The translations under genes and the position numbers were made by a program. Positions 1,351 to 18,361 of a stretch of DNA of 22,451 nt are shown here, piece after piece (position 1 is the first letter of the stretch; every line of letters begins with the position of its first letter). Under the pieces are notes generated by a model. That model searched no databases, was not told the origin of the DNA, and worked only from the letters and a program-made list of their open reading frames with translations. The stretch is from IMG/VR virus record IMGVR_UViG_3300007345_003804, positions 1 through 22,451 of that record; one strand, 5' to 3'. The stretch comes from a virus.

Positions 1351-1391
1351 AAATAGTTCTTGACTCATGCCCAAACTTCTTGTATAATATA
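1351..1391 (+). promoter_or_regulatory. Promoter P1 (sigma70-type, shared 41-bp module)
   Basis: The -35 box TTGACT lies at 1360-1365 and the -10 box TATAAT at 1383-1388, with an exact 17-bp spacer. The upstream AAATAGTTC and the downstream ATA match three other promoters in the window (2566, 6951, 11373). Predicted +1 is near 1395, leaving a leader of about 18 nt that contains AAGGA (1400-1404) before the ATG at 1413. Confidence 0.9.
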
Positions 1392-1412: not shown

Positions 1413-1883
1413 ATGAGTGACAGGTTTTACCAACAAATGCTAGATACCACAGGTTGGTGTCCAGGGTATCGTAATACTCATACTCTTGCCGAATACACTA
1501 AAAACTACACATTAAAAAGGAAAAGAACTATGGCGTGGACAGACGAAGCTAAAGCTCAGGCAGTAGAGATGTATACTGCAGAAGAACCAACTCCAGAAAA
1601 CAGTATGGAAGTTGTTAAGATGATTGCTGAAGAATTAGGCGAGAGCCCAAATGGTGTCAGAATGATTCTTACTAAAGCAGGAGTATATGTAAAGAAAACT
1701 CCAGCTGTTAAGTCAAGCAGTGGTGGAACTGGTGGTGGCAGAGTAAATGTTGCCGCAGCTCAAGACGAACTGACTAAAGCGATTAGTGACATGGGCGAAG
1801 AAGCCGATGCAGCTATCATAAGCAAGCTCACAGGGAAAGCTGCTATGTATTTCGCTACTCTAATTAATAAACTAAACGATTAA
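1413..1883 (+). CDS. HTH DNA-binding protein, probable phage transcription regulator
   Basis: This 156-residue protein has three parts: a 39-residue N-terminal piece (MSDRFYQQMLDTTGW...), a helix-turn-helix unit at about 42-92 (WTDEAKAQ, then MIAEELGESPNGVRMILTKAG), and a Gly/Ser linker (SSSGGTGGGR) leading to an Ala-rich helical tail. The HTH unit matches the repeats of the protein at 7778 in layout: an aromatic-(S/T)-(D/E) entry, an IAEE helix, then a recognition helix ending in Gly. It is the first gene after P1 and is followed directly by a terminator, so it is probably a strongly expressed single-gene unit. ATG 1413 has AAGGA 8 nt upstream; ATG 1530 (M40) also has AAGGA at the same distance and could give a short form. 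The regulatory role is inferred. Confidence 0.75.
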   Translation: MSDRFYQQMLDTTGWCPGYRNTHTLAEYTKNYTLKRKRTMAWTDEAKAQAVEMYTAEEPTPENSMEVVKMIAEELGESPNGVRMILTKAGVYVKKTPAVKSSSGGTGGGRVNVAAAQDELTKAISDMGEEADAAIISKLTGKAAMYFATLINKLND

Positions 1884-2565: not shown

Positions 2566-2606
2566 AAATAGTTCTTGACAAAACCTCAAATATTCTGTAT
2601 AATATA
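2566..2606 (+). promoter_or_regulatory. Promoter P2 (shared 41-bp module, leaderless start)
   Basis: TTGACA at 2575-2580 and TATAAT at 2598-2603 are perfect consensus boxes with a 17-bp spacer, flanked by the same AAATAGTTC and ATA as P1. Only six bases separate the -10 box from the ATG at 2610, so transcription should begin at or next to the A of the start codon. That leaves no room for a ribosome binding site. Confidence 0.92.
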
Positions 2607-2609
2607 CAT

Positions 2610-3548
2610 ATGAATAAAACAGAATACCTAGAGTTGTGTAATCAAAAGTACGCTGAGGGCAATCCAATATTGCCTGATGATGTGTATGATAGACTTGTAG
2701 AGAATACTGAACTTGAAAATAAAGTTGGGTATGATTCTAGTGAAGAAAGATTCCAACACCCCTTCCCAATGTATTCATTACAAAAAGTCTTTGTCGGAAA
2801 AGATAAAGAACCAGATTGGGATTCCAAAGAACCACACATAATGACTGCCAAGTTGGACGGTGCCGCCGTGTCTATAACTTATATAGAAGGTGTACTGACA
2901 CAGGCGTTGACTCGTGGTGATGGAAAAGCAGGGCTAGATATTACAGATAAAATTAAGACTTTAGTGCCAAATAAAATATGGAGCAAAGGACTGAAACAGA
3001 TTACTGGAGAAGTTGTTGCACCAAAAGAAATACCAAATGCTAGAAATTATGCAAGTGGTGCTTTGAATCTAAAGGACTTAAAAGAGTTTGAATCTCGTGA
3101 TATAACTTTTATAGCTTACGGAATCCAACCAGCAATATGTGCTAGTTGGACTGAAGATATGGCTATGATAAAAGACATGGGATTCTTAACTGTCACACAT
3201 AGTGATTATAGCCAGTATCCTCAGGATGGTAAAGTTGTAAGGGTCGACTCTAATATATATTTTAAAACATTAGGCCACACTTCACACCACCCAAGAGGAG
3301 CCTTCGCTCTAAAAACTAGACAGGCAGGAGTAGTTACTCGATTACTTGATGTTGAATGGAATGTCGGTAAGTCTGGTGCTGTCTCACCTGTTGCAATCTT
3401 AGAGCCGTGTGTGATTGGCGAAGCTACTATTAGTAGAGCAACTCTACATAATATTGGTTACATAGAAGCGTTAAACCTAGAAATAGGTTGTAATGTAGAA
3501 GTTATTAGAAGTGGGGAAATAATACCTCGCGTTGTAAAAAGAGTATGA
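2610..3548 (+). CDS. ligA: NAD+-dependent DNA ligase, catalytic N-terminal half
   Basis: This protein corresponds to domain Ia, the adenylation domain and the OB fold of bacterial LigA. Visible landmarks are PDDVYDR (22-28, domain Ia), motif I AKLDG with nucleophile K81, TRGDG (101-105), GEV with E134, NARNYASGALN (143-153), DGKVVRV (206-212, motif IV region), FALK with K235 (motif V), and an OB fold ending EIIPRVVKRV (303-312). LigA normally continues into a Zn finger, HhH repeats and BRCT. Here the frame stops right after the OB fold, and that remainder is encoded at 7017. Motif IV has Arg (R211) where E. coli LigA has Lys. The Tyr-His pair of domain Ia reads Lys-Tyr (13-14). It should seal NAD+-dependent nicks, probably with the other half. 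Confidence 0.93.
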   Translation: MNKTEYLELCNQKYAEGNPILPDDVYDRLVENTELENKVGYDSSEERFQHPFPMYSLQKVFVGKDKEPDWDSKEPHIMTAKLDGAAVSITYIEGVLTQALTRGDGKAGLDITDKIKTLVPNKIWSKGLKQITGEVVAPKEIPNARNYASGALNLKDLKEFESRDITFIAYGIQPAICASWTEDMAMIKDMGFLTVTHSDYSQYPQDGKVVRVDSNIYFKTLGHTSHHPRGAFALKTRQAGVVTRLLDVEWNVGKSGAVSPVAILEPCVIGEATISRATLHNIGYIEALNLEIGCNVEVIRSGEIIPRVVKRV

Positions 3549-3838
3549 AGTATGCAAAAGAAGAGCTGGAAAACAGCAACAGGATATTTAAAAGTGCTAC
3601 ACCAAAACTTACCCTTGATTGGTATGTTAAGTGGACTGCTAGTGTTATCCTTCTTGCAGCTATGGTTATTAGGTCAACAGGAATATCGAACACTGCTGAT
3701 ACAATATTATCTTTCTTTGGGTGTTTAGGTTGGTTATTTGTTGCTTTTATCTGGAAAGATAGAGCCTTAATTATTCTAAATGCTATTGCTTGTTTTATAT
3801 TATTAACAGGACTTTTAACTAAATTATTTACTGTCTAA
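3545..3838 (+). CDS. Small three-TM membrane protein (DUF6552-like)
   Basis: This 97-residue protein has a charged N-terminus (about 1-25) and three hydrophobic segments near 29-45, 53-69 and 74-95, with the motif WKDRALIILNA between the last two. The pattern LDWYVKWTAS...GWLFVAFIWKDRALI resembles the small DUF6552 membrane proteins I recall from marine phages and bacteria; this was not checked. It starts with an ATGA overlap on the ligase stop codon, so the two are translationally coupled and share promoter P2. Function unknown. Confidence 0.75.
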   Translation: MKYAKEELENSNRIFKSATPKLTLDWYVKWTASVILLAAMVIRSTGISNTADTILSFFGCLGWLFVAFIWKDRALIILNAIACFILLTGLLTKLFTV

Positions 3839-4224
3839 TGGCAGGAGGTATATACAACGAAACGTATTTTCGCAACTACCCTGAAGAAAAAGACAGGGAT
3901 GGAATACTATATGGCATAGTACTGGTTAATATGAAAACATGGGAACGAGAAACTATAAAAGTCGGCATCGCAAAAGGAAGAACATTCAAAGACGCCGTTC
4001 GAAGGGGGCGTGGATTCACCAACTACGATATTCGGATTCAGCGTTTGTGGAGCGGGACGATATACGATTGTTGGAGATTCGAGCAGAAGCTACACAACCA
4101 GTTTCAGAAAGATAGACATAAAACACAACACAAGTTTGGTGGACACACGGAATGTTTCAGCATGGAGTCTAAAATATTAGAGGCATTTCCAAAAAAGAAT
4201 GAAGAATATGATAGCAATAATTGA
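3838..4224 (+). CDS. GIY-YIG / T5orf172-like nuclease-fold protein
   Basis: The 128 residues fit the GIY-YIG superfamily: GILYGIVLV (22-30, first strand with Tyr25), IKVGIAKGR (40-48, second strand and Arg48), WRFEQKLHNQF (79-89, helix with Glu82), and GHTECFSM (102-109), which is the characteristic tail of T5orf172 and MUG113-type members. In the family the Tyr, Arg and Glu form a metal-dependent phosphodiester-cleaving site. It starts within the preceding stop codon (TAATG). It lies between the two ligase halves, where a homing-type nuclease could have helped insert a cassette, but free-standing members of this family often have unknown roles. Codon choice looks richer in G+C (GGGGGCGTGG, GAGCGGGACG) than the flanking genes. 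Confidence 0.7.
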   Translation: MAGGIYNETYFRNYPEEKDRDGILYGIVLVNMKTWERETIKVGIAKGRTFKDAVRRGRGFTNYDIRIQRLWSGTIYDCWRFEQKLHNQFQKDRHKTQHKFGGHTECFSMESKILEAFPKKNEEYDSNN

Positions 4225-4738
4225 AAACTTTTATACTAAGGAAGAATGTGATTCACTCAGAAATCACCCCGATAATGAATGGATAGCCGCAAGTTCCAGA
4301 AGCTTAGATGGAAAAGTCACAACTGGTGGGTACAGAAATGCAGACATAACTTATCGTTTACCTGTGAAAAGAAAGGAAGTCGTAGAAGCATTTAAAACTT
4401 TCAATAAACAACATTATAACTTACACTTGAATGGACACATTGAAGCAGCTATCAATAGATATGGAGTTGGACAATATTTTAAATTACACTATGATATGAT
4501 ATTGGACGATACTTTATATGACAAGAAAAGAGAATGTAGAAAAATCTCTGCAGCTATTCAGCTGTCAGACCCCAGCGAGTACGAAGGTGGTAGACTAATT
4601 GTAAAAGGATATTCAACACCTGTTGGACAAGGAACAATGATTTTATTCCACTCGCTATCATCACACGAAGTCACCCCAATTACAAAAGGAATGAGATACA
4701 GTCAAAATATATTTGCCTACGGAAAGTTTGAATTATGA
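4199..4738 (+). CDS. 2OG-Fe(II) oxygenase (prolyl 4-hydroxylase-like)
   Basis: This is a 179-residue double-stranded beta-helix dioxygenase. The iron ligands are seen as HYD (H97, D99) in YFKLHYDMILDD and the distal H156 in SLSSHEVTPITKG. R166 in GMRYS should bind the 2-oxoglutarate carboxylate, and the C-terminal FAYGKFEL strand fits. EYEGGRLIV (128-136) is the usual strand between the two ligand sets. The family hydroxylates peptides, amino acids or small molecules using O2 and 2OG. The start could be ATG 4199 or ATG 4208 (MIAIIENFY); neither has a strong SD. It overlaps the previous gene and is ATGA-coupled to the carbamoyltransferase, which suggests action on a shared substrate. The substrate is unknown. 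Confidence 0.88.
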   Translation: MKNMIAIIENFYTKEECDSLRNHPDNEWIAASSRSLDGKVTTGGYRNADITYRLPVKRKEVVEAFKTFNKQHYNLHLNGHIEAAINRYGVGQYFKLHYDMILDDTLYDKKRECRKISAAIQLSDPSEYEGGRLIVKGYSTPVGQGTMILFHSLSSHEVTPITKGMRYSQNIFAYGKFEL

Positions 4739-6072
4739 AGTTTATAGGAATTAGTGAAGGCTTCCATGATGCAGCGATAGCTGTGGTAGATGAGTATAAT
4801 CAATTACAATTTGCAACCCAAGCCGAAAGATATACAAGAGTTAAAAATGATAGATGGTTGCCCGATAACTTGGTACAAAAAGAGAAAGGAGACCAAGTTA
4901 TTTATTATGAAAACACAGAGTTTAAAAAAGCAAGACGAGAGCATTATGGTCAGTCTCGAATCGAGCTAAAAAGAGATTACGATATTAAAACAATCTTTCA
5001 TCACGAAAGTCACATGGCGGCAGGTTATTATACTGCTCCATTTACTGAGGATGTTGTATGTGTAGTTATAGACGCAGTAGGCGAGTATGACACAGCAACT
5101 ATATGGAAAGATGGAAAAAAGATATGGAGTAAACAATACCCTTGGTCTTTGGGAATGTTTTATAGTGCTATTACGAAAAGAATAGGACTAAAACCAAATG
5201 AAGATGAGTATATAACAATGGGTATGGCGGCATATGGTGATGCAGAAATAGATATGTCAGAAGAAGTACAGTCTGATTGTAGTCATGGATTTCCTTTAAC
5301 AAAATGGTTTTGGAAACACCCATACGATATAGCCGCAAGTGCGCAGTATACAATAGAACAAGAAATACTAAAAATTATGCGTGAAGCAAGAAAGCATGGC
5401 TCTAAGCTAGTATATGGTGGTGGGGTTGCCTTAAACTGTGTAGCAAATAGTAAGATTCGTCCTATGTTTGATGATATGTGGATATTTCCTAATCCAGGCG
5501 ATGCAGGAAGCGCGCTTGGTTGTATATTAGCACACACAAAGAAACGATTAGAGTATCCTCACACTTTTTGGGGAGAAAACATTTTTAGAGACTTAGAGGT
5601 TAATAAAATAGTAAAGAAACTTGTATACAAAAGAGTATGTGGAGTAGCAAATGGACAAGCAGAGTTTGGTCCAAGAGCTTTGGGTAATAGGTCTTTACTA
5701 GCAGACGTTAGAACTGATGTAAAAGATACTGTAAATGATATAAAACGAAGACAAAAGTTTAGACCATTTGCACCAGCAATACTAGAGGAGTTCTATGACG
5801 AATACTTTGAAGGATATGCAAATGAATATATGCAGTTTGTATCTAAGGCAAAACACGACTACACTAGCGTAACTCATGTAGATGGAACAGCAAGAGTACA
5901 AGTAGTAAAGAATGATGGAAGTAATCTTAGAGAAATACTAGAATATTATTATGAAGTAACTAAAGTTCCTATGTTACTTAATACAAGTTTGAATATAAAA
6001 GGACAACCTATTGTGAACACTTGGGAAGATGCAAAACAATTTGAAACAAAATATGGAGTAAATGTACTATGA
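4735..6072 (+). CDS. Carbamoyltransferase, NodU/TobZ/HypF-like
   Basis: The N-terminal ASKHA/Kae1-like domain begins FIGISEGFHDAAIAVV and holds HHESHMAA with the metal-binding HxxxH (H89, H93), the acidic VIDAVGEYD (111-119) and MGMAAYGD. The VYGGGVALNCVANSKI stretch (226-241) and PNPGDAGSALG are conserved in the family. The C-terminal domain has QAEFGPRALGNRSLLAD (309-324) and FRPFAPAI. NodU-type enzymes make carbamoyl-adenylate from carbamoyl phosphate and ATP and transfer the carbamoyl group to a hydroxyl. At 445 residues it is shorter than the usual 550-600, with short linkers, but all signature blocks are present. It is ATGA-coupled on both sides, to the oxygenase and the SGNH-like gene. 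An O-carbamoylated sugar or nucleoside product is inferred. Confidence 0.92.
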   Translation: MKFIGISEGFHDAAIAVVDEYNQLQFATQAERYTRVKNDRWLPDNLVQKEKGDQVIYYENTEFKKARREHYGQSRIELKRDYDIKTIFHHESHMAAGYYTAPFTEDVVCVVIDAVGEYDTATIWKDGKKIWSKQYPWSLGMFYSAITKRIGLKPNEDEYITMGMAAYGDAEIDMSEEVQSDCSHGFPLTKWFWKHPYDIAASAQYTIEQEILKIMREARKHGSKLVYGGGVALNCVANSKIRPMFDDMWIFPNPGDAGSALGCILAHTKKRLEYPHTFWGENIFRDLEVNKIVKKLVYKRVCGVANGQAEFGPRALGNRSLLADVRTDVKDTVNDIKRRQKFRPFAPAILEEFYDEYFEGYANEYMQFVSKAKHDYTSVTHVDGTARVQVVKNDGSNLREILEYYYEVTKVPMLLNTSLNIKGQPIVNTWEDAKQFETKYGVNVL

Positions 6073-6836
6073 TATATTGGAATGGATGTAGTTTTGTTAG
6101 AGGAATGGAAGTTGGAAAGAAGAAGCATAAGTTTGCTTGGTCTGTTTCAGAAGAGTTTAATCAAGAGTGTATAAATCATGCAAAGGTTGGAGGAAGTAAT
6201 GATAGAATATGGAGGACAACTATAAATGATGTGCCTCAGTTCTTTCAACCTGCCCTTGTAGTAATTATGTGGACTGGAATTAATAGAATGGAGTATTTAG
6301 AGTGGGCACCCCTTAAGTCCCATGAGTTTATATGGAGAGCAGCTAATTGGGCAAACTTTAACTGGAATCCTAAAACTGGATTTATAGATAAAAAGAATAG
6401 TTATATAACTAAAAATCCTGTACCAGGTGTTGTTAAGAAATCTTTACAGGATTATATGGTGAATGTAAGAAATATGCCATTTAATTTAATATATAACTTA
6501 CATTATATGTATACAACTAATATTTACTTAAAGTCATTAGGAATTAATGTTTTGAATTATACTATGTCGAATACTCCCTATCTACATTTACCAGAGTACT
6601 TAGAACGTACATTTAGAGAGGGAGCAAACTTTGTATGGGAGACTCCCCAAATAGATAAAAAAGAATGGTTTAAAAGGTTACCTTTCCTAAAAGAAGAAGG
6701 TATGTATGATATGTGTAAAAAGGCGGGAGTACCCTTTGGAGAAAAAGACCATCCGTTAGAAGAAGGACATGCACTAATGCATGATAGAATAGTAAAGGAT
6801 ATAAGGAAACATGGATTTAATAAAGAGTTTAATTAA
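6069..6836 (+). CDS. SGNH-hydrolase-like protein
   Basis: The start MIYWNGCSFVRG has the block I pattern of SGNH proteins (GxS, S8). GGSNDRIWR (41-49) resembles block II, with Gly and Asn for the oxyanion hole. VVIMWTGINRMEYL (64-77) takes the place of the block III strand. DHPLEEGHALMHDRI near the end (227-241) resembles block V, with D227, H228 and H234. These features suggest an esterase or acyltransferase fold of 255 residues, without signal peptide. It is ATGA-coupled to the carbamoyltransferase, and such pairs often decorate glycans. A 34-codon gene starts inside its last 26 nt. The fold call is moderately sure; catalytic activity is unproven. Confidence 0.72.
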   Translation: MIYWNGCSFVRGMEVGKKKHKFAWSVSEEFNQECINHAKVGGSNDRIWRTTINDVPQFFQPALVVIMWTGINRMEYLEWAPLKSHEFIWRAANWANFNWNPKTGFIDKKNSYITKNPVPGVVKKSLQDYMVNVRNMPFNLIYNLHYMYTTNIYLKSLGINVLNYTMSNTPYLHLPEYLERTFREGANFVWETPQIDKKEWFKRLPFLKEEGMYDMCKKAGVPFGEKDHPLEEGHALMHDRIVKDIRKHGFNKEFN

Positions 6837-6915
6837 AAAGATTCAAGCAGTTTGGTTTCACTGGAAACATAGAAATGATTATGTAGAAGATACCCACATT
6901 TACGAGGACGATTAA
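6811..6915 (+). CDS. Very small protein (34 aa)
   Basis: ATG 6811 opens 34 codons to the TAA at 6913-6915. AAGGAA lies 3-8 nt upstream. The peptide has a basic amphipathic N-terminal helix (MDLIKSLIKKIQAVWFHWKH) and an acidic C-terminus (YVEDTHIYEDD). It could attach to a membrane surface. It overlaps the SGNH-like gene by 26 nt and is the last gene of the P2 unit. The good ribosome site supports it as real. Function unknown. Confidence 0.5.
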   Translation: MDLIKSLIKKIQAVWFHWKHRNDYVEDTHIYEDD

Positions 6916-6950
6916 AAAATTGATTCACGCTTATAAGTCAAGCATCCGAA

Positions 6951-6991
6951 AAAAAGTTCTTGACAGATGCTTAAACTTTTTGTATAATATA
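6951..6991 (+). promoter_or_regulatory. Promoter P3 (shared 41-bp module)
   Basis: TTGACA (6960-6965) and TATAAT (6983-6988) are separated by 17 bp, and the AGTTC upstream and ATA downstream are the same as in the other copies. Predicted +1 near 6995 gives a leader of about 22 nt with AGGAGAGAG (7001-7009) before the GTG at 7017. It is the only copy with A in place of T in the AAATAGTTC block. Confidence 0.92.
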
Positions 6992-7016
6992 TGTATATTT
7001 AGGAGAGAGAAGCTAA

Positions 7017-7775
7017 GTGAATGTGATTATAGCACCAACCAACTGCCCTTGTTGTGATAGTGAATTAGAATTGGTCAATGAGCAATTATTTTGCCGTAAC
7101 CAATACTGTTCTGCACAATGGAGCAAGAAGTTGGAAAGCTTTGCTTCTACTCTTAAAATAAAAGGTCTTGGACCAGCGACTCTAGTTAAGTTGCAAGTCC
7201 AAGACTACCCAGAACTTTATGAACTTACTGTAGATGAAATACAGCAAAGATTAGGAAGTATTAAGTTAGCTGAGAAACTTTATGACGAATTGCAAAAGTC
7301 TAAAAGTAGTAAGTTGGTCGATATAATACCAGCTTTCTCAATACCACTTATTGGTCGGTCGGCTTCTCAAAAATTATGCGATAGAATATCTCACATCGAA
7401 GATATTAGCGAGAACAGTTGTACTGAGGCAGGTATCGGACCAAAAGCATCAGCTAGCTTATTACAGTGGTTAGACACTGAGTTTTATCCTAACAAATACA
7501 TTGACAACCTTCCCTTCAATTGGAACAACAAGATTAAAGAAAAGAAAGAGGTCACAGGCGTCGTTTGTATATCAGGTAAGTTAAAAAGCTACCCAACAAA
7601 AGCACATGCTACCTTGGTATTAGAAAAGTCTGGGTATGTTGTAAAATCAAGTCTGACAAAAGACTGCACTCATCTTATAAATGAGAGTGGACTAGAATCA
7701 GCAAAAACAAAGACAGCTCGTGACCGAGGTGTTGTAATAATAACCAATTTAAAAAAATTAATAAAGGAAAATTAA
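7017..7775 (+). CDS. ligB: NAD+-dependent DNA ligase, Zn/HhH/BRCT C-terminal half
   Basis: This 252-residue protein is the piece missing from the ligase at 2610. It begins within 9 residues of a four-Cys zinc finger (C10, C13, C26, C31), continues through SFASTLKIKGLGPATLVKLQ and further helix-hairpin-helix units (about 40-160), and ends in a BRCT domain (180-250; SGKLKSYPTKAHATLVLEKSGYVVKSS and the TH(L)I strand). In LigA these domains grip the nicked duplex. The cut relative to intact LigA lies just between OB fold and zinc finger, with no domain lost. GTG 7017 is preferred over GTG 7023 because AGGAG lies 11 nt upstream. It is first in the P3 unit, 2 nt before the HTH-repeat gene. Symbol follows the T5-type subunit A/B naming and is tentative. 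Confidence 0.9.
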   Translation: MNVIIAPTNCPCCDSELELVNEQLFCRNQYCSAQWSKKLESFASTLKIKGLGPATLVKLQVQDYPELYELTVDEIQQRLGSIKLAEKLYDELQKSKSSKLVDIIPAFSIPLIGRSASQKLCDRISHIEDISENSCTEAGIGPKASASLLQWLDTEFYPNKYIDNLPFNWNNKIKEKKEVTGVVCISGKLKSYPTKAHATLVLEKSGYVVKSSLTKDCTHLINESGLESAKTKTARDRGVVIITNLKKLIKEN

Positions 7776-7777
7776 AA

Positions 7778-8494
7778 ATGGCATTACCAAAATGGACAGA
7801 CGAAAGAACACAAGCTTTAGTGGACTTTGTCGGTGGAGAAACCCCTATATCTCAAGCAACTGTTGCTTCAGCAGCAGAAGAATTAGAGACTTCAGTAAGA
7901 AGTGTCTCTTCTAAGCTAAGAAAAATGGGACACGAAGTTGAATTAGCATCAGCTTCACAAAGCAAATCTTTTTCAGATGAGCAAGAAGCAACGTTACAAA
8001 ACTTTGTAACAGATAACTCAGGTGGCTACACTTATGCAGAAATCGCTTCTAACTTTGAAGGTGGAGCATTTAGTGCAAAATCAATTCAAGGTAAAATCTT
8101 ATCTATGCAGTTAACAGAACATGTTAAACCTGCACCTAAAGTTGAAACTGTAAAAACTTACAGCGAAGACGAAGAAAGCCAGTTCGTTTCATTAGTAAAC
8201 GACGGAGCTTTTATTGAGGACATCGCAGAAGCTATGGGCAGAAGCGTAAACTCAATCAGAGGAAAAGCATTATCACTACTTAGAGCTGGTGAAATCAACG
8301 CTATTCCTAAGCAGAAAGAAACTAAAGGCTCAAGCAAAGCTGATCCTTTAGATGGTCTTAATATAGTAGATATGTCAGTAGAAGATATCGCATCTGAAAT
8401 TGGCAAAACAGTAAGAGGTGTTAAAACTATGCTTACTAGAAGAGGTCTACAGTGCTCAGACTATAACGGAGCTGCTAAAAAAGAAATAGGCTAA
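7778..8494 (+). CDS. Protein with four tandem HTH repeats, probable DNA-binding regulator
   Basis: I see four related units at about 5-56, 64-117, 127-175 and 190-228. The first three open with an aromatic-(S/T)-(D/E)-(D/E) motif (KWTDER, SFSDEQ, TYSEDEE) followed by a helix. Each unit carries a helix-turn-helix ending in a recognition helix such as TSVRSVSSKLRKMG, FSAKSIQGKILSM, RSVNSIRGKALSL and KTVRGVKTMLTRRG. The unit matches the single HTH of the protein at 1413. Repeated Myb/HTH-type modules usually bind DNA cooperatively, so a genome-organising or transcription-control role is inferred. AAAGGAAAAT precedes the ATG, and a strong terminator follows 15 nt after the stop. It shares P3 with the ligase half. 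Confidence 0.75.
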   Translation: MALPKWTDERTQALVDFVGGETPISQATVASAAEELETSVRSVSSKLRKMGHEVELASASQSKSFSDEQEATLQNFVTDNSGGYTYAEIASNFEGGAFSAKSIQGKILSMQLTEHVKPAPKVETVKTYSEDEESQFVSLVNDGAFIEDIAEAMGRSVNSIRGKALSLLRAGEINAIPKQKETKGSSKADPLDGLNIVDMSVEDIASEIGKTVRGVKTMLTRRGLQCSDYNGAAKKEIG

Positions 8495-8575: not shown

Positions 8576-9934
8576 TTGACTTTAGAAAGTGCATTACTTA
8601 AGCAAATCATTGCTAATGGAGACTTTGAGACTTGGAACAGTCTTAAAGAGCATTACTTACCTGAGGGTGAGTACCGTAAGCTATGGAAAATCTTAGACAA
8701 GCACGTTCATAAGTATCAAGCACTCCCAACATTTGAAGATTTAAAACTCGAAGTTCGTTCAAGAGAACTTCAAGAAAAAGTCTATGCAATAGAAACTGTA
8801 GAAACAGACGTTCCTTCTATTATATTATTAGACTATCTAAAAAACCAGTTTACGCAAAACGAAATATTATCCCGAATCGAAGACTATGTAGATAAACATA
8901 TTGCTATTGGCGATGCTCGTGAAAACATTGACTTACTCCAAGAAATTGTAGTACAAGTCGAAGACCGAGTTGAAACCAGTGATGAAGCAGAAAGTATGGA
9001 TTCTATAGAACTGTTCGATAATGCAGAGGATTTATCTAAGTTTTTGCCGCTCGGTCTCAATCAAGAATACGACCTGGACTACACATTCTCTCCCAAAGAC
9101 TTGGTAGTTATTGGTGGTAATCGTGGTGGAGGTAAGTCATTTACTTGTTGTAATATTGCTACCGCTGCCCAAGCAAAAGGTAAATCTGTTTTGTATTTCA
9201 CTATTGAAATGGACACAAGACAGATTCTACAAAGAATTGCCGCTATTTCCACAGGTGTGCCTACTAATCGTATAAAAACTAAGAATCTTGCTCCAATGGA
9301 GTGGGAGAAAGTTGCGACTTGGTGGGCAGACCGATTTGAAGGTGGAGATGAATGTCTTAATGAGTACAAGGAACATCAAGATTTTGATAAGTTCCACTAT
9401 CAACTTACTAGAAATAAGTTGGCAGAAAAGCCTCAAATAGATGTACATTATGACCCCTCGCTTACACTAGCTAAAATAATAAGTGTAGTGAGACAGAAAC
9501 AAGCGCAATTACCTGACCTTGGAATAGTGATAGTAGATTACCTAAACCAGATTAGACGCCATAACGCACCAAACCGTTCAGGACAATACGATTGGACCGA
9601 GCAAATCGAGATCTCAAAAGGTCTCAAATCTCTCGCACAAGAGAGCAAAGTTCTAGTTCTCTCCGCTTTCCAGACTAATGAGAAAGGAGAGGCAAGATTC
9701 TCAAAAGGAATCTTGGATGCTGTTGACGCTGCTTACAGCATACAGCATTGGGGAGACGCAGAGCCTTGTATTAAGTTAAAATGTGATAAGATGAGAAACG
9801 GAAAAGCGGAGCCATTCGTTTCAGAAATGAATTGGGACACACTAAAAATCGGCCCGCACACTGCTCTAGACCCAGATGAAAAAGCTGAGTTAAAAGAAAC
9901 AATGACAACAGGAGAAGATACATATGATATTTAA
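8576..9934 (+). CDS. Replicative DNA helicase, DnaB/gp41-type
   Basis: The 452-residue protein has an N-terminal helical domain (about 1-130) of the DnaB N-domain kind and a RecA-like motor domain. Walker A is GGNRGGGKSFT (180-190) and Walker B is LGIVIVDYLNQI (315-326, D321). An SAFQTNEKG segment (363-371) and SGQYDWTEQIEISKGLKSLA (335-354) match the DnaB H3/H4 region. It would unwind the fork 5'-3' as a hexamer and partner the primase encoded at 11421. The start is TTG 8576 with GGGAG 8-12 nt upstream; no better ATG gives the N-domain. It overlaps the next gene by 11 nt. Confidence 0.93.
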   Translation: MTLESALLKQIIANGDFETWNSLKEHYLPEGEYRKLWKILDKHVHKYQALPTFEDLKLEVRSRELQEKVYAIETVETDVPSIILLDYLKNQFTQNEILSRIEDYVDKHIAIGDARENIDLLQEIVVQVEDRVETSDEAESMDSIELFDNAEDLSKFLPLGLNQEYDLDYTFSPKDLVVIGGNRGGGKSFTCCNIATAAQAKGKSVLYFTIEMDTRQILQRIAAISTGVPTNRIKTKNLAPMEWEKVATWWADRFEGGDECLNEYKEHQDFDKFHYQLTRNKLAEKPQIDVHYDPSLTLAKIISVVRQKQAQLPDLGIVIVDYLNQIRRHNAPNRSGQYDWTEQIEISKGLKSLAQESKVLVLSAFQTNEKGEARFSKGILDAVDAAYSIQHWGDAEPCIKLKCDKMRNGKAEPFVSEMNWDTLKIGPHTALDPDEKAELKETMTTGEDTYDI

Positions 9935-11420: not shown

Positions 11421-12260
11421 ATGACGGCAGAAGAACTTTTACAACAGAAACACATTGAATACCACATCTCGGGAAAGGATGCGAAGATTCATTGTCTAAA
11501 TCCTGAGCATGATGATAGTAACCCTTCAATGCGCGTCGATAGAATTACAGGGATATTTCACTGTTTTTCCTGTGGTTTCAAAGGAAACCTATTTACATAT
11601 TATGGTGCACCAGCTTCTCCATTAGAAGTTAGAGCGCACAGAATCAAAGAAAGAATACAAAAAGTCAGGTCAGAAACCGTTGGTATATCACTCCCAAAAG
11701 ATAGACTAGCATGGAAAGGTGGCGGTTTTCGTAATATAAGCGAAGATACCTTAGCCATATGGGATGCTTTTACTTGGAATGTTCCCAAGTTTGAGAACCG
11801 CATCATCTTCCCTATTCGTGACATCACAGGAAAAACAGTTGCACTTATCGGCAGAGCAATAAATGATATAGGAATAAATAAGTACTATATCTATCCCAAT
11901 GGGGCAGAAATGCCCTTTTGCCCTGCAAAAGTAAAACCTTTTCAAAACAGAGTTATATTGGTGGAGGGTATCTTTGATGCTCTTAACCTTTGGGACAAAG
12001 GTCTCAAAAATACAGTGTGCACATTTGGTACACAACAAGTGAATTGGGTCAAACTAAGTCTACTAAAGCTACAAGGCGTTCAAGGTTTAGATATTATGTT
12101 TGACGGGGATGAGGCGGGTAGACAAGCTGCTGAACAAGCAAAAAGTTTAGCAGAACAATTAGAAATGAGTGCTAGAGTAGTAAAACTAAGAGATAATATA
12201 GACCCTGGCAATTTAACAAAAGCAGAAATAGAAAGATTAAAGGAAAAATTATATGGCTAA
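11421..12260 (+). CDS. DNA primase, DnaG-type (CHC2 zinc finger plus TOPRIM)
   Basis: Numbered from ATG 11421, the 279-residue protein has a zinc-binding domain with C25, H30, C48 and C51 (CLNPEHDDSNPSM, then FHCFSCGFKGN) and a TOPRIM domain with ILVEGIFDAL (179-188, E182) and MFDGDEAGR (226-234, D228, D230). It lays RNA primers for the fork and would work with the DnaB-type helicase. It is short relative to DnaG (about 580) and lacks the C-terminal helicase-binding domain, as in other phage primases. The frame could be extended upstream to a TTG at 11382, but that codon is the P4 -35 box, so ATG 11421 is right. It overlaps the polymerase gene by 8 nt. Confidence 0.93.
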   Translation: MTAEELLQQKHIEYHISGKDAKIHCLNPEHDDSNPSMRVDRITGIFHCFSCGFKGNLFTYYGAPASPLEVRAHRIKERIQKVRSETVGISLPKDRLAWKGGGFRNISEDTLAIWDAFTWNVPKFENRIIFPIRDITGKTVALIGRAINDIGINKYYIYPNGAEMPFCPAKVKPFQNRVILVEGIFDALNLWDKGLKNTVCTFGTQQVNWVKLSLLKLQGVQGLDIMFDGDEAGRQAAEQAKSLAEQLEMSARVVKLRDNIDPGNLTKAEIERLKEKLYG

Positions 12261-14517
12261 CGTAGCAATAATAGAAAAAACAATGACAAGTACTAATTAT
12301 GATAAGTACTTTGATTTTGACTATGACAGGTATGCCCTGTGTTCAGATAGTTCAAAACAGAAAATATTAAAAAGAGATGTTGATATTGAAATCGATATCG
12401 ACTCGTACGATTGGCTCATTCTAGTAGGTTCAGAGCCTTTCAAAAACTTTACAAGAAAGACATCAATAACAGAGTACAATGGAAAAATTGTTGATGATAA
12501 GTTTTTAGGTTTAATTAACCCTGCTATGATAAAGTTCAGACCAGAAGCAAAGAAGTCGTTCGAGGAAGCAATTGAGAGTATATCGGGGTACATAAGCGGA
12601 GATTTAAAACAAATGACGCTAGGCGAAAACCAAGTATATGGTATACAAGAGAGTGAAGAACTGCATAAGTATTTGCAAGAAGCGTTAGACCACCCAAACA
12701 ATTACATAGCACTTGACTCTGAGACATCAGCATTATATTGCCGTGATGGTTATATGCTTGGTTTCTCTATGTCATACAAAAAAGAACATGGTGTCTATGT
12801 AGACACAGAATGTATAGATGATAAAGCAGAACAAATGATGCAAGAATTATTTGATAAGAAACGAGTTGTATTTCATAACAGTAAGTTTGATTTACAATGG
12901 TTTGAGTATCATTTCAACTTTAAGTTCCCAAACTTTGAAGACACAATGCTAATGCACTATATGTTTGACGAAAACCCAGGAACACATGGACTAAAACAAC
13001 TAGCCATGAATCATACTCCATACGGAGACTATGAGGCAGAACTTGATAACTATATACAAGAGTACAAGAAGAAAACAGGAATATTAAAAGCAGACTTTAG
13101 TTATTCTATGATTCCATTTGAAACAATGAAATACTATGCTGCAATGGATGCCGTAGTTACCTTCTTGTTATTTGAAAAGTTTGAAGCAGCAATATTGAAA
13201 AATGATAAATTATACTGGGTATATAAAAATCTTCTTATTGAAGGAGTAAGATTCCTTAAAGATGTAGAATCTAACGGTGTTCCTTTTGACCTTGCTCGAC
13301 TAGAGTTTGGACAGAAAAGGATGCAGGAAGATATTGATGTAGCTGTAGCTGCTCTTGAATCCTTCCCTGAGGTTAGAGCATATCAAAAAGCCAAAGGAGG
13401 TATGTTTAATCCAAATAGTACAGTACAACTTCGTGAGTTACTATTTGATTACATAGGCTTAGCCCCAACGGGTAAGAAAACGGGTACGGGTGCTCATAGC
13501 ACAGACGCAGAAGTTCTTGGGCAACTTGCCGAAGAACACGAAGTACCTAAACACATTTTAGAAATCAGACAAAAGGTTAAAATTAAGAATACATATCTTG
13601 ATAAAATTATACCGAATCTCGATAGAGATGGCAGACTGCGCACTGGTTTCAACCTTCACGGTACTACATCAGGCCGACTATCTAGTAGTGGTAAACTAAA
13701 TATGCAACAGCTTCCGCGAGACAATCCCACAGTTAAGGGTTGTATCAAGGCAAAGGCGGGTCATAAAATAGTTGCCATGGACTTAACTACTGCAGAAGTA
13801 TATTGTGCAGCTGTGCTAGCAAATGATAAAGGTCTGATGAATGTGTTTAAGTCTGGAGGAAACTTCCATAGTACAATTGCTAAGCAAGTATTCAAACTTC
13901 CATGTGAAGTTGAAGAAGTCGCAGAACTCTACGGAGACAAACGACAACAAGCTAAAGCTGTTACATTTGGTATTATGTATGGAGCAGGCCCGAAAAAGAT
14001 TAGTGAACAAGTTACTAAAGATAGTGGTAGTGAGTTTACTATGCAAGACGCTCAATTGGTTATCAAAGACTACTTTGAAGCGTTCCCCAAACTGCGAGAG
14101 TGGTTAAATAATATGCAGAAGTTTATTCAAGCTAATGGTTTTATTTATTCTCATTTCGGAAGAAAGAGAAGATTACCAAATGTCTTTTCACAAGACAAGG
14201 GAATCGCTGCTCACGAAGTTAGGTCAGGAGTAAATGCACTAGTACAGTCTGTATCATCCGACATCAATCTGCTTGGTGCCATCGATACTCAGAAGTATAT
14301 TCGCAAGACTGGTATGAAAGCAAAGATCTTTGCTCTAGTGCATGACTCCATTTTAGCAGAAGTGCCCGAAGATGAAGTAGAACTATATAGTAAGAAACTG
14401 AAAGAGTTTATTCAAAAAGATAGAGGACTGTCAATACCTGGCGCTCCAGTTGGTTGTGACTTTGATGTTGCAGATGACTACTCTCTTGGCAAGTTTGAAA
14501 AACTATATGGAATATAA
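12253..14517 (+). CDS. DNA polymerase I, family A, with 3'-5' exonuclease
   Basis: The 754 residues include an N-terminal extension (1-140, no 5' nuclease), a DEDD-type 3'-5' exonuclease (D155 and E157 in ALDSETS, then VFHNSKFDLQWF and KYYAAMDAVV) and a polymerase domain. Motif A is VAMDLTTAEVY with D510. Motif B is KRQQAKAVTFGIMYG with R564 and F572. Motif C is LVHDSIL with D698. The position equal to E. coli Phe762 is Phe, and the Tyr766 equivalent is present. Motif A differs from the usual DYSQIE: Ser and Ile are replaced by Thr and Ala. It is the replicative phage polymerase, cotranscribed with primase from P4, and overlaps the next gene by 11 nt. Confidence 0.96.
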   Translation: MANVAIIEKTMTSTNYDKYFDFDYDRYALCSDSSKQKILKRDVDIEIDIDSYDWLILVGSEPFKNFTRKTSITEYNGKIVDDKFLGLINPAMIKFRPEAKKSFEEAIESISGYISGDLKQMTLGENQVYGIQESEELHKYLQEALDHPNNYIALDSETSALYCRDGYMLGFSMSYKKEHGVYVDTECIDDKAEQMMQELFDKKRVVFHNSKFDLQWFEYHFNFKFPNFEDTMLMHYMFDENPGTHGLKQLAMNHTPYGDYEAELDNYIQEYKKKTGILKADFSYSMIPFETMKYYAAMDAVVTFLLFEKFEAAILKNDKLYWVYKNLLIEGVRFLKDVESNGVPFDLARLEFGQKRMQEDIDVAVAALESFPEVRAYQKAKGGMFNPNSTVQLRELLFDYIGLAPTGKKTGTGAHSTDAEVLGQLAEEHEVPKHILEIRQKVKIKNTYLDKIIPNLDRDGRLRTGFNLHGTTSGRLSSSGKLNMQQLPRDNPTVKGCIKAKAGHKIVAMDLTTAEVYCAAVLANDKGLMNVFKSGGNFHSTIAKQVFKLPCEVEEVAELYGDKRQQAKAVTFGIMYGAGPKKISEQVTKDSGSEFTMQDAQLVIKDYFEAFPKLREWLNNMQKFIQANGFIYSHFGRKRRLPNVFSQDKGIAAHEVRSGVNALVQSVSSDINLLGAIDTQKYIRKTGMKAKIFALVHDSILAEVPEDEVELYSKKLKEFIQKDRGLSIPGAPVGCDFDVADDYSLGKFEKLYGI

Positions 14518-15076
14518 TAAACTAGAGCAACGTAAAGAAGCATTAGCAGGTAAAATAGTTGGAGATTTTGTATTTATACATATTCCAAAGACTGGTGGTA
14601 GAAGTATAACACAAAACTGTTTTCATAATCAGTTTGGTCTGTGTGCAGATTGGTACAAATATAGAGGGTATAACAAGTTTATAACTCAAGTAAGAAACCC
14701 TTATGATAGATGGGAAAGTATGTATTGGCACTTAAAAAGACACAAAGAGTTTGACTATGATTTTAATAACTGGACTTTAAAAACAATAATAGTACAGTCT
14801 CAAGGATTTGTAAACATGAATAAGCCTTTTAAAACAGATAAGTATGAATTAAAATCTTTATATCAAGTAATGGGTAAACCTATGTGGTTTTGGATTGATA
14901 GAGAAGTTGAAGTTCATAAATTAGAAGAAGGAACTATTTGGAAACGACTAGGCATAGAAGAAAGAAAAAGAAATGTAGGTAAAAATAGAAAAGAAGTAAT
15001 CTGGTCTGACGAAGCACAGAGTATATTTACTAAATACTTTGAAAGAGATTTTAAAGAGTTCGGATATGATATTTGA
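14507..15076 (+). CDS. Sulfotransferase-family protein A
   Basis: Numbered from ATG 14507 (189 residues), FVFIHIPKTGGRSI (21-34) is the 5'-phosphosulfate loop with K28, and FITQVRNPYDRWESMYW (58-74) is the 3'-phosphate site with R63. The tail ends ERDFKEFGYDI as in the family. These enzymes move sulfate from PAPS to a hydroxyl or amine on sugars, lipids or peptides. A longer in-frame extension exists upstream but lies wholly within the polymerase gene; the 11-nt overlap start matches the following junctions. It is the first of two tandem members with distinct acceptor-side sequences, so they probably act on different positions or substrates. Confidence 0.85.
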   Translation: MEYNKLEQRKEALAGKIVGDFVFIHIPKTGGRSITQNCFHNQFGLCADWYKYRGYNKFITQVRNPYDRWESMYWHLKRHKEFDYDFNNWTLKTIIVQSQGFVNMNKPFKTDKYELKSLYQVMGKPMWFWIDREVEVHKLEEGTIWKRLGIEERKRNVGKNRKEVIWSDEAQSIFTKYFERDFKEFGYDI

Positions 15077-15704
15077 AGATGATAAGATAATATTTATACA
15101 TATACCCAAGTGTGGAGGTAGCTCTGTAACTAGAGCTTATAGGCGATACCGCTTACCTAAAGATAAGAAAATGGCAATGAAAACTTGGTCGCCTGGTTTA
15201 AAATCAGTTTCAAAATGGAAAACAAATGAGGCATTTTGGGTAGAAGTAACTAATATGCACGCTACTTATGATAGATATAAACCTTTCTATCCTGACTATC
15301 AATATATAACTCAAATTAGATACCCTATGGCAAGATGGGAAAGTGTTTATAAGCACTTGTGTAAGCTGGAACTAGTAAATACGGAGTTCTCAGAGTGGAC
15401 AGAAAGAGCTTCTCAATACTTACCAAAAGGTCAGTTTTGGAGACTGTTTGATAATATAGATATATACCTAGATAGAACTCATGCCCATAATAGTGAAATA
15501 GAGATTTTGTTTTTACCTCAATGGACTTGGATAAGAGAAGAAGTAAAAGTATTTAAACTAGAAGAAGAAACTATATGGAAGTGGTTGAATCTTCCTAAAA
15601 GAGTAGATAATGTATCTCCTATACAAGAGTGTATATGGTCAGAGAAAGCAGAAAACTTTGTAAAAGAGTGGTGGAGAAAAGATTTTGAATATTATGAAAA
15701 ATAA
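15066..15704 (+). CDS. Sulfotransferase-family protein B
   Basis: The 212-residue protein begins IFEDDKIIFIHIPKCGGSSV, the 5'-phosphosulfate loop (14-19), and has ITQIRYPMARWESVYKHL (81-98) with R85 as the 3'-phosphate site. Its end, WWRKDFEYYEK, is shortened compared with its neighbour. ATG 15066 is chosen over an in-frame TTG at 15039 because it gives the 11-nt overlap found repeatedly here and puts the P-loop-like strand at the usual distance. The inserts (KDKKMAMKTWSPGLKS and FDNIDIYLDRTHAHN) differ from protein A, which suggests a different acceptor. Loop residue Cys replaces Thr in PKCGG, which is common in the family. Confidence 0.85.
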   Translation: MIFEDDKIIFIHIPKCGGSSVTRAYRRYRLPKDKKMAMKTWSPGLKSVSKWKTNEAFWVEVTNMHATYDRYKPFYPDYQYITQIRYPMARWESVYKHLCKLELVNTEFSEWTERASQYLPKGQFWRLFDNIDIYLDRTHAHNSEIEILFLPQWTWIREEVKVFKLEEETIWKWLNLPKRVDNVSPIQECIWSEKAENFVKEWWRKDFEYYEK

Positions 15705-16365
15705 AGATACTGTAGTATGCGTAAGTGGTGGCACTGAATCTACTGCTGCTTTATTGTATGCAGTAAATAAAGGTATGAAAGTTGTAGGTCTACACTTAGC
15801 AGATAAGTCAGACCCTAAGAAAATATTTGAAGCATCTAAACAAGCTGCTGAAAAACAATGTGAGTTACTAGGAGTTCCTTTAGTTACAACTGTATGTGAT
15901 ATTCCTAAAGATAATCCAGGACTCTTTGCTGTATATCAGTATCAATCAGCTATATTACAACTCATAAAAGGAAACAAGATGAGAATAAAAAATATAGTAT
16001 GGGGTTCTAGTGCAGAAGATAGTTTTAGACAAAGAGTACAATTAAGATATCCTAACAGAATACTAGCAGTAGATGCCGAAGATGTTTTAGAAGTTACACA
16101 AGTATCTTTAAACTCAGTTATGAATCTACCTGTCAATATATTTCCTTTTGAGTGGATGACAAAAGCAGAAATAATATCATTACTTGTAAGAAGTAACAAA
16201 GAGTTATATGATTTAATATTTACTTGTAATAATCCTACAGATGATTTAAAAACGTGTGGTAGATGTAAAAAGTGTGCCGAAAGATGGTTTTCAGAACAAA
16301 CAGCTAAACAAGCTAAACTAAGAGTACAGGAGAGTGTTAATTATGTCAATAGTTACGATAGTTAA
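15694..16365 (+). CDS. PP-loop ATPase, QueC-like (ATP-pyrophosphatase)
   Basis: Numbered from ATG 15694 (223 residues), VCVSGGTESTAALL (8-21) is the PP-loop that binds ATP, and VWGSSAEDSFRQ (102-113) is the second conserved block. The C-terminus has four cysteines, C178, C188, C191 and C194 (CGRCKKCAER), the zinc site of QueC and its relatives. QueC makes preQ0 from carboxydeazaguanine, but this family also includes other amide- and thio-forming enzymes. In the loop Glu stands where most have Asp (SGGxDS). No QueD, QueE, FolE or DpdA gene is in the window, so a deazapurine role is open. It overlaps the previous gene by 11 nt and the next by 23 nt. Confidence 0.8.
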   Translation: MKNKDTVVCVSGGTESTAALLYAVNKGMKVVGLHLADKSDPKKIFEASKQAAEKQCELLGVPLVTTVCDIPKDNPGLFAVYQYQSAILQLIKGNKMRIKNIVWGSSAEDSFRQRVQLRYPNRILAVDAEDVLEVTQVSLNSVMNLPVNIFPFEWMTKAEIISLLVRSNKELYDLIFTCNNPTDDLKTCGRCKKCAERWFSEQTAKQAKLRVQESVNYVNSYDS

Positions 16366-16834
16366 ACCTTATGAAGAATTAACAACTGATGAACTTTATA
16401 GAGTCATACAGTTGAGAATACAAGGATTTATAGTAAGAAATGGGACTTGTTATCAAGACCTAGAAGCACATTATGATAAAAATCAATATTATATGATGTC
16501 ATATGATACAGTTCTAGGCATAGAGCCACAACTAATGGTAGGCGTAAATGCTTTGTGCACAAATAAAGTATTTACAGGAGATGATGGTACAGAGTATCGT
16601 TATCCCGCATTTCGTAGACAAGCATGGGAAGATGCTTACAAAGGGGGCGCATCAACTTATGACCTAGAAACAGGGCGTGAGTTTTGCAAAAATAATTTAG
16701 GCAGTCCTAACATGATGTTAGAGATTACATATGAGAAAGGCAGACAAGTCTTTCTCGACTTTGGATGTAGAGAAATAGGAACTAATATTGACCCAGCGGG
16801 TAGAAAAAATTGGGTGTTTGTTTATGAATCTTAA
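16343..16834 (+). CDS. GNAT-family N-acetyltransferase-like protein (ElaA-like start)
   Basis: The N-terminal stretch ELTTDELYRVIQLRIQGFIVRNGTCYQDLEAHYDK resembles the ElaA pattern (l.elY.ilqLR..vFvvEq.c.Y.d.D), and VFLDFGCREIGTNIDPAGR near the C-terminus resembles the GNAT (F)Y..FGF.eig strand-turn. The pantetheine-binding Q/RxxGxG/A loop is not clear, so catalytic competence is uncertain. Length is 163 residues. ATG 16343 has AGGAG 10 nt upstream and is preferred over the GTG at 16334, which overlaps that site. Acylation of an amine on the pathway product is possible but not shown. Confidence 0.55.
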   Translation: MSIVTIVKPYEELTTDELYRVIQLRIQGFIVRNGTCYQDLEAHYDKNQYYMMSYDTVLGIEPQLMVGVNALCTNKVFTGDDGTEYRYPAFRRQAWEDAYKGGASTYDLETGREFCKNNLGSPNMMLEITYEKGRQVFLDFGCREIGTNIDPAGRKNWVFVYES

Positions 16835-17030
16835 AGAAAAAATACAGATTAGACTAGACAAAATAGAGATGCTTATGAACAAGGATTTTCATTTGAAGAA
16901 TCCTGACGAAGTATACGATCAAACACTAGATGTTAGTAAGTTTTGGTCAATATTATCAGAAGAAGATAGAGATTTTATTCAAGGAGTACAATCATCTATT
17001 GAAGAGGGCTGGTCTTGGAAAGACAAGTGA
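16824..17030 (+). CDS. Small helical hypothetical protein (68 aa)
   Basis: ATG 16824 overlaps the previous stop by 11 nt. The 68 residues are predicted helical: MNLKEKIQIRLDKIEMLMNK, then VYDQTLDVSKFWSILSEEDRDFIQGVQSSIEEGW. From memory this LKEKI...IEML pattern with a FWS.LSEEDRDFI motif is a conserved marine-phage hypothetical, but no function is known. It is followed by a 7-nt gap to the next gene. Confidence 0.6.
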   Translation: MNLKEKIQIRLDKIEMLMNKDFHLKNPDEVYDQTLDVSKFWSILSEEDRDFIQGVQSSIEEGWSWKDK

Positions 17031-17037
17031 AGAGGAT

Positions 17038-17544
17038 ATGAGATTAGACAAACTATGGAAAACAATACGTTATCCGATTGATAAAGAGTATTGGGTAAAA
17101 GAAATTAGAGAAGGCAAAAACTTTCAATGGGAAGTAGACCTAAATAATTACGCAAACGCTGATAGTAATATATGGCATACAGACGTTACCCAAAGGTATT
17201 TAGATGCAATAGCACAATATAAAGTTCCTTTTTCTAAAAAGATGCATTGTAGACTTTTCTTTGTAAAAATTATGGCGGAAGACTTTTATGCTAAATATCC
17301 TGTATTGGGTCAGACTGGAATCCTTTGGAATATTACGGGTATAAATAAAGAATCTAGACATAAAATAGTAGGCTCAAACAATGAAGGGAGTGTTGCACTA
17401 GAGGTAAAGACTGCTAAACCACTATTAGTAGATATGAATAGTTTAAAAACTATAACAGATGTACAAAGACGAGATTTAGTATTAATTTTTGATGAACCTT
17501 TTGATAAAGTATTAGAGAGCTGGGATGAGTATAACAAGTTATAA
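17038..17544 (+). CDS. Cupin/2OG-oxygenase-fold-like protein 1
   Basis: The 168-residue protein from ATG 17038 has a C-terminal part similar in strand order to the next gene: LWNITGI, a middle insertion, KPLLVDMNSLKTITD, then QRRDLVLIFDEPFDKVLESW, as in the last strands of 2OG-Fe(II) beta-helices (the (R)-x-ils(i/l).f pattern). An IWHTDVTQ motif appears early (about 51-58), but its position does not match the usual HxD slot, and no distal His is evident. It is therefore probably a double-stranded beta-helix protein that may have lost metal binding. It overlaps the next gene by 20 nt. Confidence 0.45.
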   Translation: MRLDKLWKTIRYPIDKEYWVKEIREGKNFQWEVDLNNYANADSNIWHTDVTQRYLDAIAQYKVPFSKKMHCRLFFVKIMAEDFYAKYPVLGQTGILWNITGINKESRHKIVGSNNEGSVALEVKTAKPLLVDMNSLKTITDVQRRDLVLIFDEPFDKVLESWDEYNKL

Positions 17545-17920
17545 TTATAAATGGAAGCAATATAAACATCACGGTAAAGAAACTATAGAGGGATATACTT
17601 TTACTAGAATACCTCCAGTTCAGTTTAACGGTAGATGGAACATGAAAATAATAAAGTTAAATGAAACTATACCTTGGCATACTGACTGGGACACTAAATG
17701 TGCTATAAATTACTTACTAAATGATGATTTAGAAAGTGCAGGGCATATTGAAATAGGAGAAAAAGCCGAAAAGTTTCAGTATAGAATGGCAGTTATTGAT
17801 ACTACTAAAAGACATAGAGCTGTAGTGTATGATAAACCAAGAAAAATATTAAAGATAAGTATTTTTGATGAAACTTATGAGGAAATATGCAAAAAATTAG
17901 ATTCCCTATTTACGTCATAA
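17525..17920 (+). CDS. Putative 2OG-Fe(II) / aspartyl-hydroxylase-like oxygenase
   Basis: In the 131 residues the sequence IPWHTDWDTKCAINYLL (49-65) gives H52-x-D54 followed by an N-(Y/F)-L strand, and DTTKRHRAVVYDKPRKILKISIF (92-114) gives the distal H97 and a 2OG-binding R106. This is the minimal ligand set of the double-stranded beta-helix oxygenases, in a short form. It probably hydroxylates a side chain or a small molecule. It starts inside the previous gene and overlaps the next by 34 nt. The two tandem genes might form a heterodimer. Confidence 0.68.
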   Translation: MSITSYNYKWKQYKHHGKETIEGYTFTRIPPVQFNGRWNMKIIKLNETIPWHTDWDTKCAINYLLNDDLESAGHIEIGEKAEKFQYRMAVIDTTKRHRAVVYDKPRKILKISIFDETYEEICKKLDSLFTS

Positions 17921-18357
17921 ATGAAGAGCCAGAAGAAATAGATGGACTGGTTATTATTGGTGACCAAGTAGTAGATGATAAAAATATGGATGGTAGTAGT
18001 ATAGGAATAAGAAGGCTGCAAACACCAATGAAAAGTATATATCCTTTGCGTTATCAAATAGATGACGAAGTAGGAATGATGAAGCATAGGGGAAAGCATT
18101 TTATAGATACCAATGGAGTTTATTGGTATGATGAAAAAACAACAACAGCTCAATTAAAATATCTTAAAATAAGAAAAGTTGAGAAGAAAGATATTGCATC
18201 AGTAATTTGGTTAAAGGATTGTCCTTTTCCATTTATTGAGAGTAGACCACCAATAGCGGGGTCTAGTTGGGCAGGAGTATTGTATAAACAAGGTATTCCA
18301 TGGAAAATATGGGAATATTGCGAGGATAAAAAGAAAGACACATGGAGGAAAATCTAA
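17887..18357 (+). CDS. Hypothetical protein (156 aa)
   Basis: I do not recognise this protein. It has an N-terminal strand-rich part (IRFPIYVINEEPEEIDGLVII), a basic middle (LKYLKIRKVEKKD) and a C-terminal part with SSWAGVLYKQGIPWKIWEYC. The early strands and a short HRGKHFIDTNG loop make a compact beta-rich fold likely. There is no membrane segment or signal peptide. It lies between an oxygenase-like and a radical SAM gene, so it may be part of the same pathway. The 34-nt overlap with the preceding gene is the largest in the operon. Confidence 0.65.
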   Translation: MQKIRFPIYVINEEPEEIDGLVIIGDQVVDDKNMDGSSIGIRRLQTPMKSIYPLRYQIDDEVGMMKHRGKHFIDTNGVYWYDEKTTTAQLKYLKIRKVEKKDIASVIWLKDCPFPFIESRPPIAGSSWAGVLYKQGIPWKIWEYCEDKKKDTWRKI

Positions 18358-18361
18358 AAGC

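Follow-up and report, generated by a model that had tools for sequence, protein, structure and literature searches.

A predicted T5-lineage heterodimeric NAD+-dependent DNA ligase and the gene-filled interval between its subunit genes in marine phages

The ligase locus

The viral record IMGVR_UViG_3300007345_003804 was analyzed over positions 1 to 22,451, a stretch of 22,451 nucleotides (nt) referred to here as the window. It carries two genes that, judged from their sequences, very probably encode both subunits of a heterodimeric nicotinamide adenine dinucleotide (NAD+)-dependent DNA ligase of the T5 lineage. LigN (2610..3548; 312 residues), of the T5 ligA type, comprises a short Ia domain and the adenylation and OB domains, and LigC (7017..7775; 252 residues, GTG start codon), of the T5 ligB type, comprises the Zn finger, HhH and BRCT domains. 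Both were assigned by Pfam, PHROG, alignment and PDB matches, and LigC additionally by a structural model. The coordinates, starts and stops that a first-pass annotation of the window had given for the two genes are correct. These two genes and the neighboring genes, promoters and cargo of the window given below as start..end coordinates, as well as the second cargo site, lie on the plus strand.

The Pfam adenylation model (PF01653) matches LigN at 1.1e-26 and the OB model (PF03120) at 1.7e-23. The OB match stops at residue 311 of 312, one residue before the end of the protein, and the four Zn finger cysteines are found within residues 1-31 of LigC, bearing out the earlier description of a clean two-gene split at the OB/Zn finger boundary. 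Among PHROG ligase families, LigN belongs to phrog_3359 (3e-102) and LigC to phrog_3498 (6.2e-58), which correspond to two separate ligase halves. When joined, the halves reproduce the domain order and core catalytic residues of one-piece LigA (Escherichia coli, PDB entry 2owo; phrog_3869), which differs in being a single chain with a fuller Ia, a longer adenylation domain and an OB-Zn linker. Compared with E. coli LigA, all split ligases examined have a shortened Ia, lack one stretch of the adenylation domain and have lost most of the OB-Zn linker. The earlier claim that no LigA domain is missing thus holds insofar as every domain is represented, but not for their full extent.

The closest solved homologs of both proteins are the chains of PDB entries 9hu3 and 9i5i (released 2026), considered here through their titles and sequences and entitled 'PR1 phage heterodimeric DNA ligase in complex with 21-mer nicked DNA'. 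LigN is matched by chain A (1.5e-61) and LigC by chain B (5e-33), with identities in the structure comparison of approximately 40% and 36%, respectively. The chain A stretch given by the PDB search is identical to a protein of Providencia phage PR1, in which the two genes lie 192 nt apart.

The genes flanking the ligase follow the order of the coliphage T5 replication module, D3-ligA-ligB-D5-helicase-primase-polymerase. In the window, LigN is preceded by a D3-like DNA-binding protein (1413..1883; phrog_1725), while LigC is followed by a D5-like transcription regulator (7778..8494; phrog_323), a DnaB-like replicative helicase (8576..9934; Pfam and PHROG matches), a DNA primase (11421..12260) and a family A DNA polymerase (12253..14517). 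T5 and its Demerecviridae relatives share with the window the same two proteins, the split point and the neighbors (D3, D5, D6 helicase, primase and polymerase), although the identity of the window proteins to those of T5 is 44% for LigN and 36% for LigC. In the T5 record (AY543070), ligA and ligB are T5.116 and T5.117, with 202 nt between them. By domains, phylogeny and neighbors, the sequences place the pair among the split NAD+ ligases of the T5 lineage, and the likeness to T5 drawn in the first-pass annotation is upheld by the kinship with T5 ligA/ligB, the gene order, the tree described below and the matches to the PR1 heterodimer.

Conservation of the two subunits

The catalytic residues Lys115, Asp117, Gly118, Arg136, Glu173, Arg200, Asp285 and Lys314 (E. 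coli numbering, used throughout) are kept in LigN, as are the Ia residues Tyr22, Asp32, Tyr35 and Asp36, with Asp32 replaced by Asn in a few split ligases. In LigC, the Zn finger cysteines and many positions of the HhH and BRCT domains are invariant across 35 alignment rows, and the AlphaFold model is good (mean predicted local distance difference test score, pLDDT, 87).

Several observations weigh against a functional two-subunit ligase. Glu113 and Arg208 are replaced throughout the split-ligase family, and in the subclade of the window LigN residue 15, equivalent to His23 and adjoining the conserved Tyr22 of Ia, is Ala. In the other NAD+ ligases compared this position is His, Tyr or Phe. AlphaFold modeled LigN poorly in its Ia and OB parts (mean pLDDT 65), so that the fold of these parts rests on sequence. 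Pairwise LigN and LigC distances do correlate (r 0.94 for all pairs, 0.78 within the marine clade), which speaks in favor of such an enzyme, but co-inheritance alone accounts for this. Loss of NAD+ use through the His23 to Ala replacement was considered and rejected, because Tyr occupies the position in Acinetobacter LigA and in other ligases.

A further reading is that LigN alone is a working adenylating enzyme, and that LigC has drifted toward a different function, for example that of a DNA-binding or regulatory factor. LigC does have its own promoter and adjoins the regulator D5, and its matches to the HhH and BRCT models are weak, with scores below the Pfam cut-offs. The invariant cysteines and HhH/BRCT positions described above, together with the match to the B chain of a solved heterodimer, speak against such drift, which we regard as very unlikely. 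In favor of a two-subunit enzyme, a Haloferax NAD+ ligase truncated so as to lack its Zn-HhH-BRCT region was adenylated but did not ligate (PMC1684257). Attempts to rebuild that enzyme from two pieces were unsuccessful, as its C-terminal piece resisted expression (PMC1684257).

LigN and LigC are thus read by analogy as a two-subunit, T5-type ligase that almost certainly works, and we infer both its activity and heterodimer formation from the structure of the PR1 enzyme and the biochemistry of LigA in general. LigN, holding the NAD+ site and the active-site lysine, would be adenylated by NAD+, and LigC would supply the DNA-clamping Zn finger, HhH and BRCT domains. Together they would close around nicked DNA and seal the nick in the course of replication.

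Origin of the split

The interval between LigN and LigC (3549-7016) spans 3468 nt and holds five genes, in agreement with the wide separation noted previously. An assembly error as the cause of the separation is ruled out by the identical layout found at 98-100% identity in other contigs (L003, L004/L084 and L005/L085). Searches of IMG/VR gave 81 loci with both halves, a count that includes many near-copies or the same contig twice; none is fused, and the interval ranges from 1507 to 5865 nt. The T5-type two-protein ligase is therefore common in uncultured marine phages. In ten cultured relatives the halves are also separate genes, and the gaps are shorter, at 192 (PR1), 199 (Klebsiella phage Kpn02), 202 (T5), 443, 467, 769, 801, 922, 1135 and 1374 nt, with zero to three genes, which in Vibrio phages include a DprA-like gene. 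Closeness of the subunit genes (0.2-1.4 kb) is a usual but non-defining trait of the cultured members from which the 3468 nt seen here depart.

A phylogenetic tree was built from 27 split ligases and 10 one-piece ones. A 100/100 branch sets all the split ligases apart, and among them the cultured Demerecviridae form the sister group of the marine clade. The one-piece phage ligases sit on long branches, leaving the nearest one-piece relative unsure. No fused LigN-LigC gene nested inside the split clade was found. The first-pass annotation had named an intact LigA elsewhere in the same genome as a finding that would tell against it; the contigs of ten relatives (46-105 kb) contain no second intact ligase, each having one adenylation domain and one LigC, and the ATP-type ligase domain PF01068 is likewise absent from them. 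On this sequence evidence the gene split arose once, in the ancestor of the cultured T5-like phages and the marine clade. The split itself is old and was already known, including from the solved two-protein structure in a T5 relative.

The first-pass annotation had proposed that a GIY-YIG-like gene in the interval could have caused the insertion, that is, that a cassette carrying this gene entered an intact ligA and divided it. A T5orf172 (GIY-YIG-like) protein, assigned by Pfam, is indeed encoded at 3838..4224 and occurs in the interval of all 81 marine loci. However, the ligases of T5, Kpn02 and PR1 are split with no such gene between their halves, and the T5orf172 gene therefore cannot have caused the split, which has a single origin predating both clades. 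The division lies exactly between domains, with promoters in between. Moreover, unlike a mobile gene, T5orf172 is kept throughout the marine clade at 54-93% identity and never outside this interval, and the pattern expected of a homing endonuclease, a split only where a sporadic endonuclease is present, is not the one seen. We give this origin very little credence; the split is settled as ancestral and is no product of the cassette.

It is scarcely conceivable that an intron or intein joins the halves at the RNA or protein level into a one-piece ligase. LigN and LigC each have their own stop, start and promoter, the window has no Rfam match, and the PR1 enzyme is present as two chains in the PDB. 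In favor of joining, interrupted ligase genes do exist: in the huge phage LR756500.1 (L173; 2980-6092) the LigA frame is broken within the adenylation domain by a 337-residue endonuclease-like open reading frame (ORF). That interruption is possibly an intron, and the region has no Rfam match.

Promoters of the subunit genes

A repeat search recovered promoter copies at positions 1349, 2564 and 6949. These contain consensus promoters before the D3-like gene (1360..1388; TTGACT-17-TATAAT), LigN (2575..2603; TTGACA-17-TATAAT) and LigC (6960..6988; TTGACA-17-TATAAT), and TTGAC(A/T)-17-TATAAT is also found ahead of the primase gene. The twin promoters reported earlier are therefore present before both halves, but are not confined to them. 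Nor is their separateness unusual, as had been supposed: the T5 record annotates single promoters ahead of D3 and of ligA, plus a pair (P-K28b and P-K28a) between ligA and ligB, so a promoter ahead of each subunit gene is part of the inherited T5 plan.

The LigC promoter is perfect or one base off in 56 of 65 distinct upstream regions and lies 20-35 nt ahead of the start codon; the window copy is accompanied by a Shine-Dalgarno sequence. A 45-residue ORF at 6920-7057, read in a different frame across the promoter and start of LigC, was rejected as a gene. The LigN promoter has a different geometry, its -10 box ending 6 nt before the ATG in the window. Of 45 distinct marine upstream regions, 44 have exactly this spacing and one has 7 nt, and in a second scan 50 of 51 upstream regions have it; the six intervening bases vary (13 forms), as do the promoter spacers (35 forms; both counts pooled with other genes of the clade). 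Two further, unrelated genes of this clade are preceded by the same geometry, which is lacking at ligA in the ten cultured relatives.

If +1 is taken as the seventh base past the -10 box, the first base of ligN mRNA would be the A of the ATG. From the spacing, the transcript is predicted to be leaderless, a feature that looks new, and ligN would in turn be translated without a leader. If true, the locus would provide an example of a phage replication enzyme whose leaderless expression is conserved.

A conserved microprotein gene before LigC

A 34-codon ORF at 6811..6915, approximately 100 nt before LigC, overlaps the end of the preceding DUF6071-like gene. It was listed as a gene in the first-pass annotation, and its conservation as a protein in 116 loci confirms that view. 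In these loci the ORF has an ATG, encodes 34-51 residues and mostly lies 99-105 nt before LigC. The product is basic in its N-terminal part and shows conservation of an (E)DT(H/Y)(I/V)YE motif. The ratio of nonsynonymous to synonymous polymorphism (pN/pS) is 0.31 in frame vs 1.32 and 1.68 in the other two frames. A separate scan of viral contigs placed LigC 103-113 nt after the microprotein match in 77 of 78 new loci; in the remaining one the contig stops before LigC, giving 77 of 77 with room for it. Ten relatives each have one copy of the gene, the LigN-LigC intervals of the ten cultured relatives lack its motif, and comparison with PHROG gave no match at a meaningful score. By these sequence criteria it is a real, conserved gene restricted to the marine clade, and it looks new.

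The fixed position hints at a role with the ligase, and if this is true the microprotein adds a candidate ligase partner. It is interesting to ask whether the peptide is a third part of the enzyme, replacing the lost OB-Zn linker or tuning assembly. Its restriction to the marine clade, single copy number, placement before LigC and in-frame constraint would all fit such a part. Position is no proof of partnership, however, and PR1, a cultured relative whose interval has no such motif, has a two-chain ligase on DNA. A third part of this kind therefore seems improbable. We similarly doubt the broader proposal that the marine ligase works with a third protein of 34-51 residues and a leaderless ligN, such that each half would be supplied under its own control.

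Cargo between the ligase genes and behind the polymerase gene

In addition to T5orf172, the interval encodes a DUF6552 membrane protein (3545..3838; Pfam), the start of which overlaps the LigN stop, a 2-oxoglutarate (2OG)-Fe(II) oxygenase (4199..4738; Pfam and PHROG), a NodU-type carbamoyltransferase (4735..6072; Pfam and PHROG) and a DUF6071-like protein (6069..6836; Pfam), all four of which we regard as cargo. A megablast search against phages returned a single 60-bp match, inside the carbamoyltransferase gene, and no tRNA was found within the window. The carbamoyltransferase is present in the gap of all marine lineages except one (L112/L113). Other gap families are variable and include DUF6552, 2OG oxygenase, radical SAM/SPASM, QueC-like PP-loop and cytidylyltransferase proteins. 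T5orf172 and carbamoyltransferase cargo, the microprotein and the predicted leaderless LigN promoter were observed in the marine clade alone and set it apart from T5 and its cultured relatives. The variant with changing cargo and a conserved mini-protein between the ligase genes is what is new here, the split ligase of T5 relatives and its structure being already known.

The interval had been described as a modification cassette, which in the sense of DNA modification is not supported. A known DNA carbamoyltransferase, acting on 5-hydroxymethylcytosine, occurs together with a homolog of thymidylate synthase/hydroxymethylase (PMC8670742). That family, PF00303, is absent from contigs of ten relatives (46-105 kb, possibly incomplete), and a role of the carbamoyltransferase as a maker of 5-carbamoyloxymethylcytosine was not supported for this reason.

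In the marine clade, the stretch from ligN to the ligC promoter would have turned into a cargo site following the single split in the common ancestor with the cultured phages. The cargo sits behind ligN, with the stop/start overlap seen in the window, and we infer that it is cotranscribed with ligN. The ligC promoter, its leader and the microprotein gene would remain attached to ligC, so that both subunits could be expressed whatever cargo is inserted.

A second cargo site lies behind the polymerase gene (15039-21262), with sulfotransferase-like, QueC-like, radical SAM/SPASM, asparagine-synthase-like and cytidylyltransferase-like genes. Five gap families of relatives recur here in the window (15685-21262; 31-74% identity). 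Together with the variability of the gap families, this recurrence identifies the LigN-LigC gap, at the level of sequence, as a cargo site of the marine clade, with cargo families common to it and the post-polymerase site. This sharing looks new and, like the microprotein and the leaderless ligN geometry, is a lesser feature of the locus.

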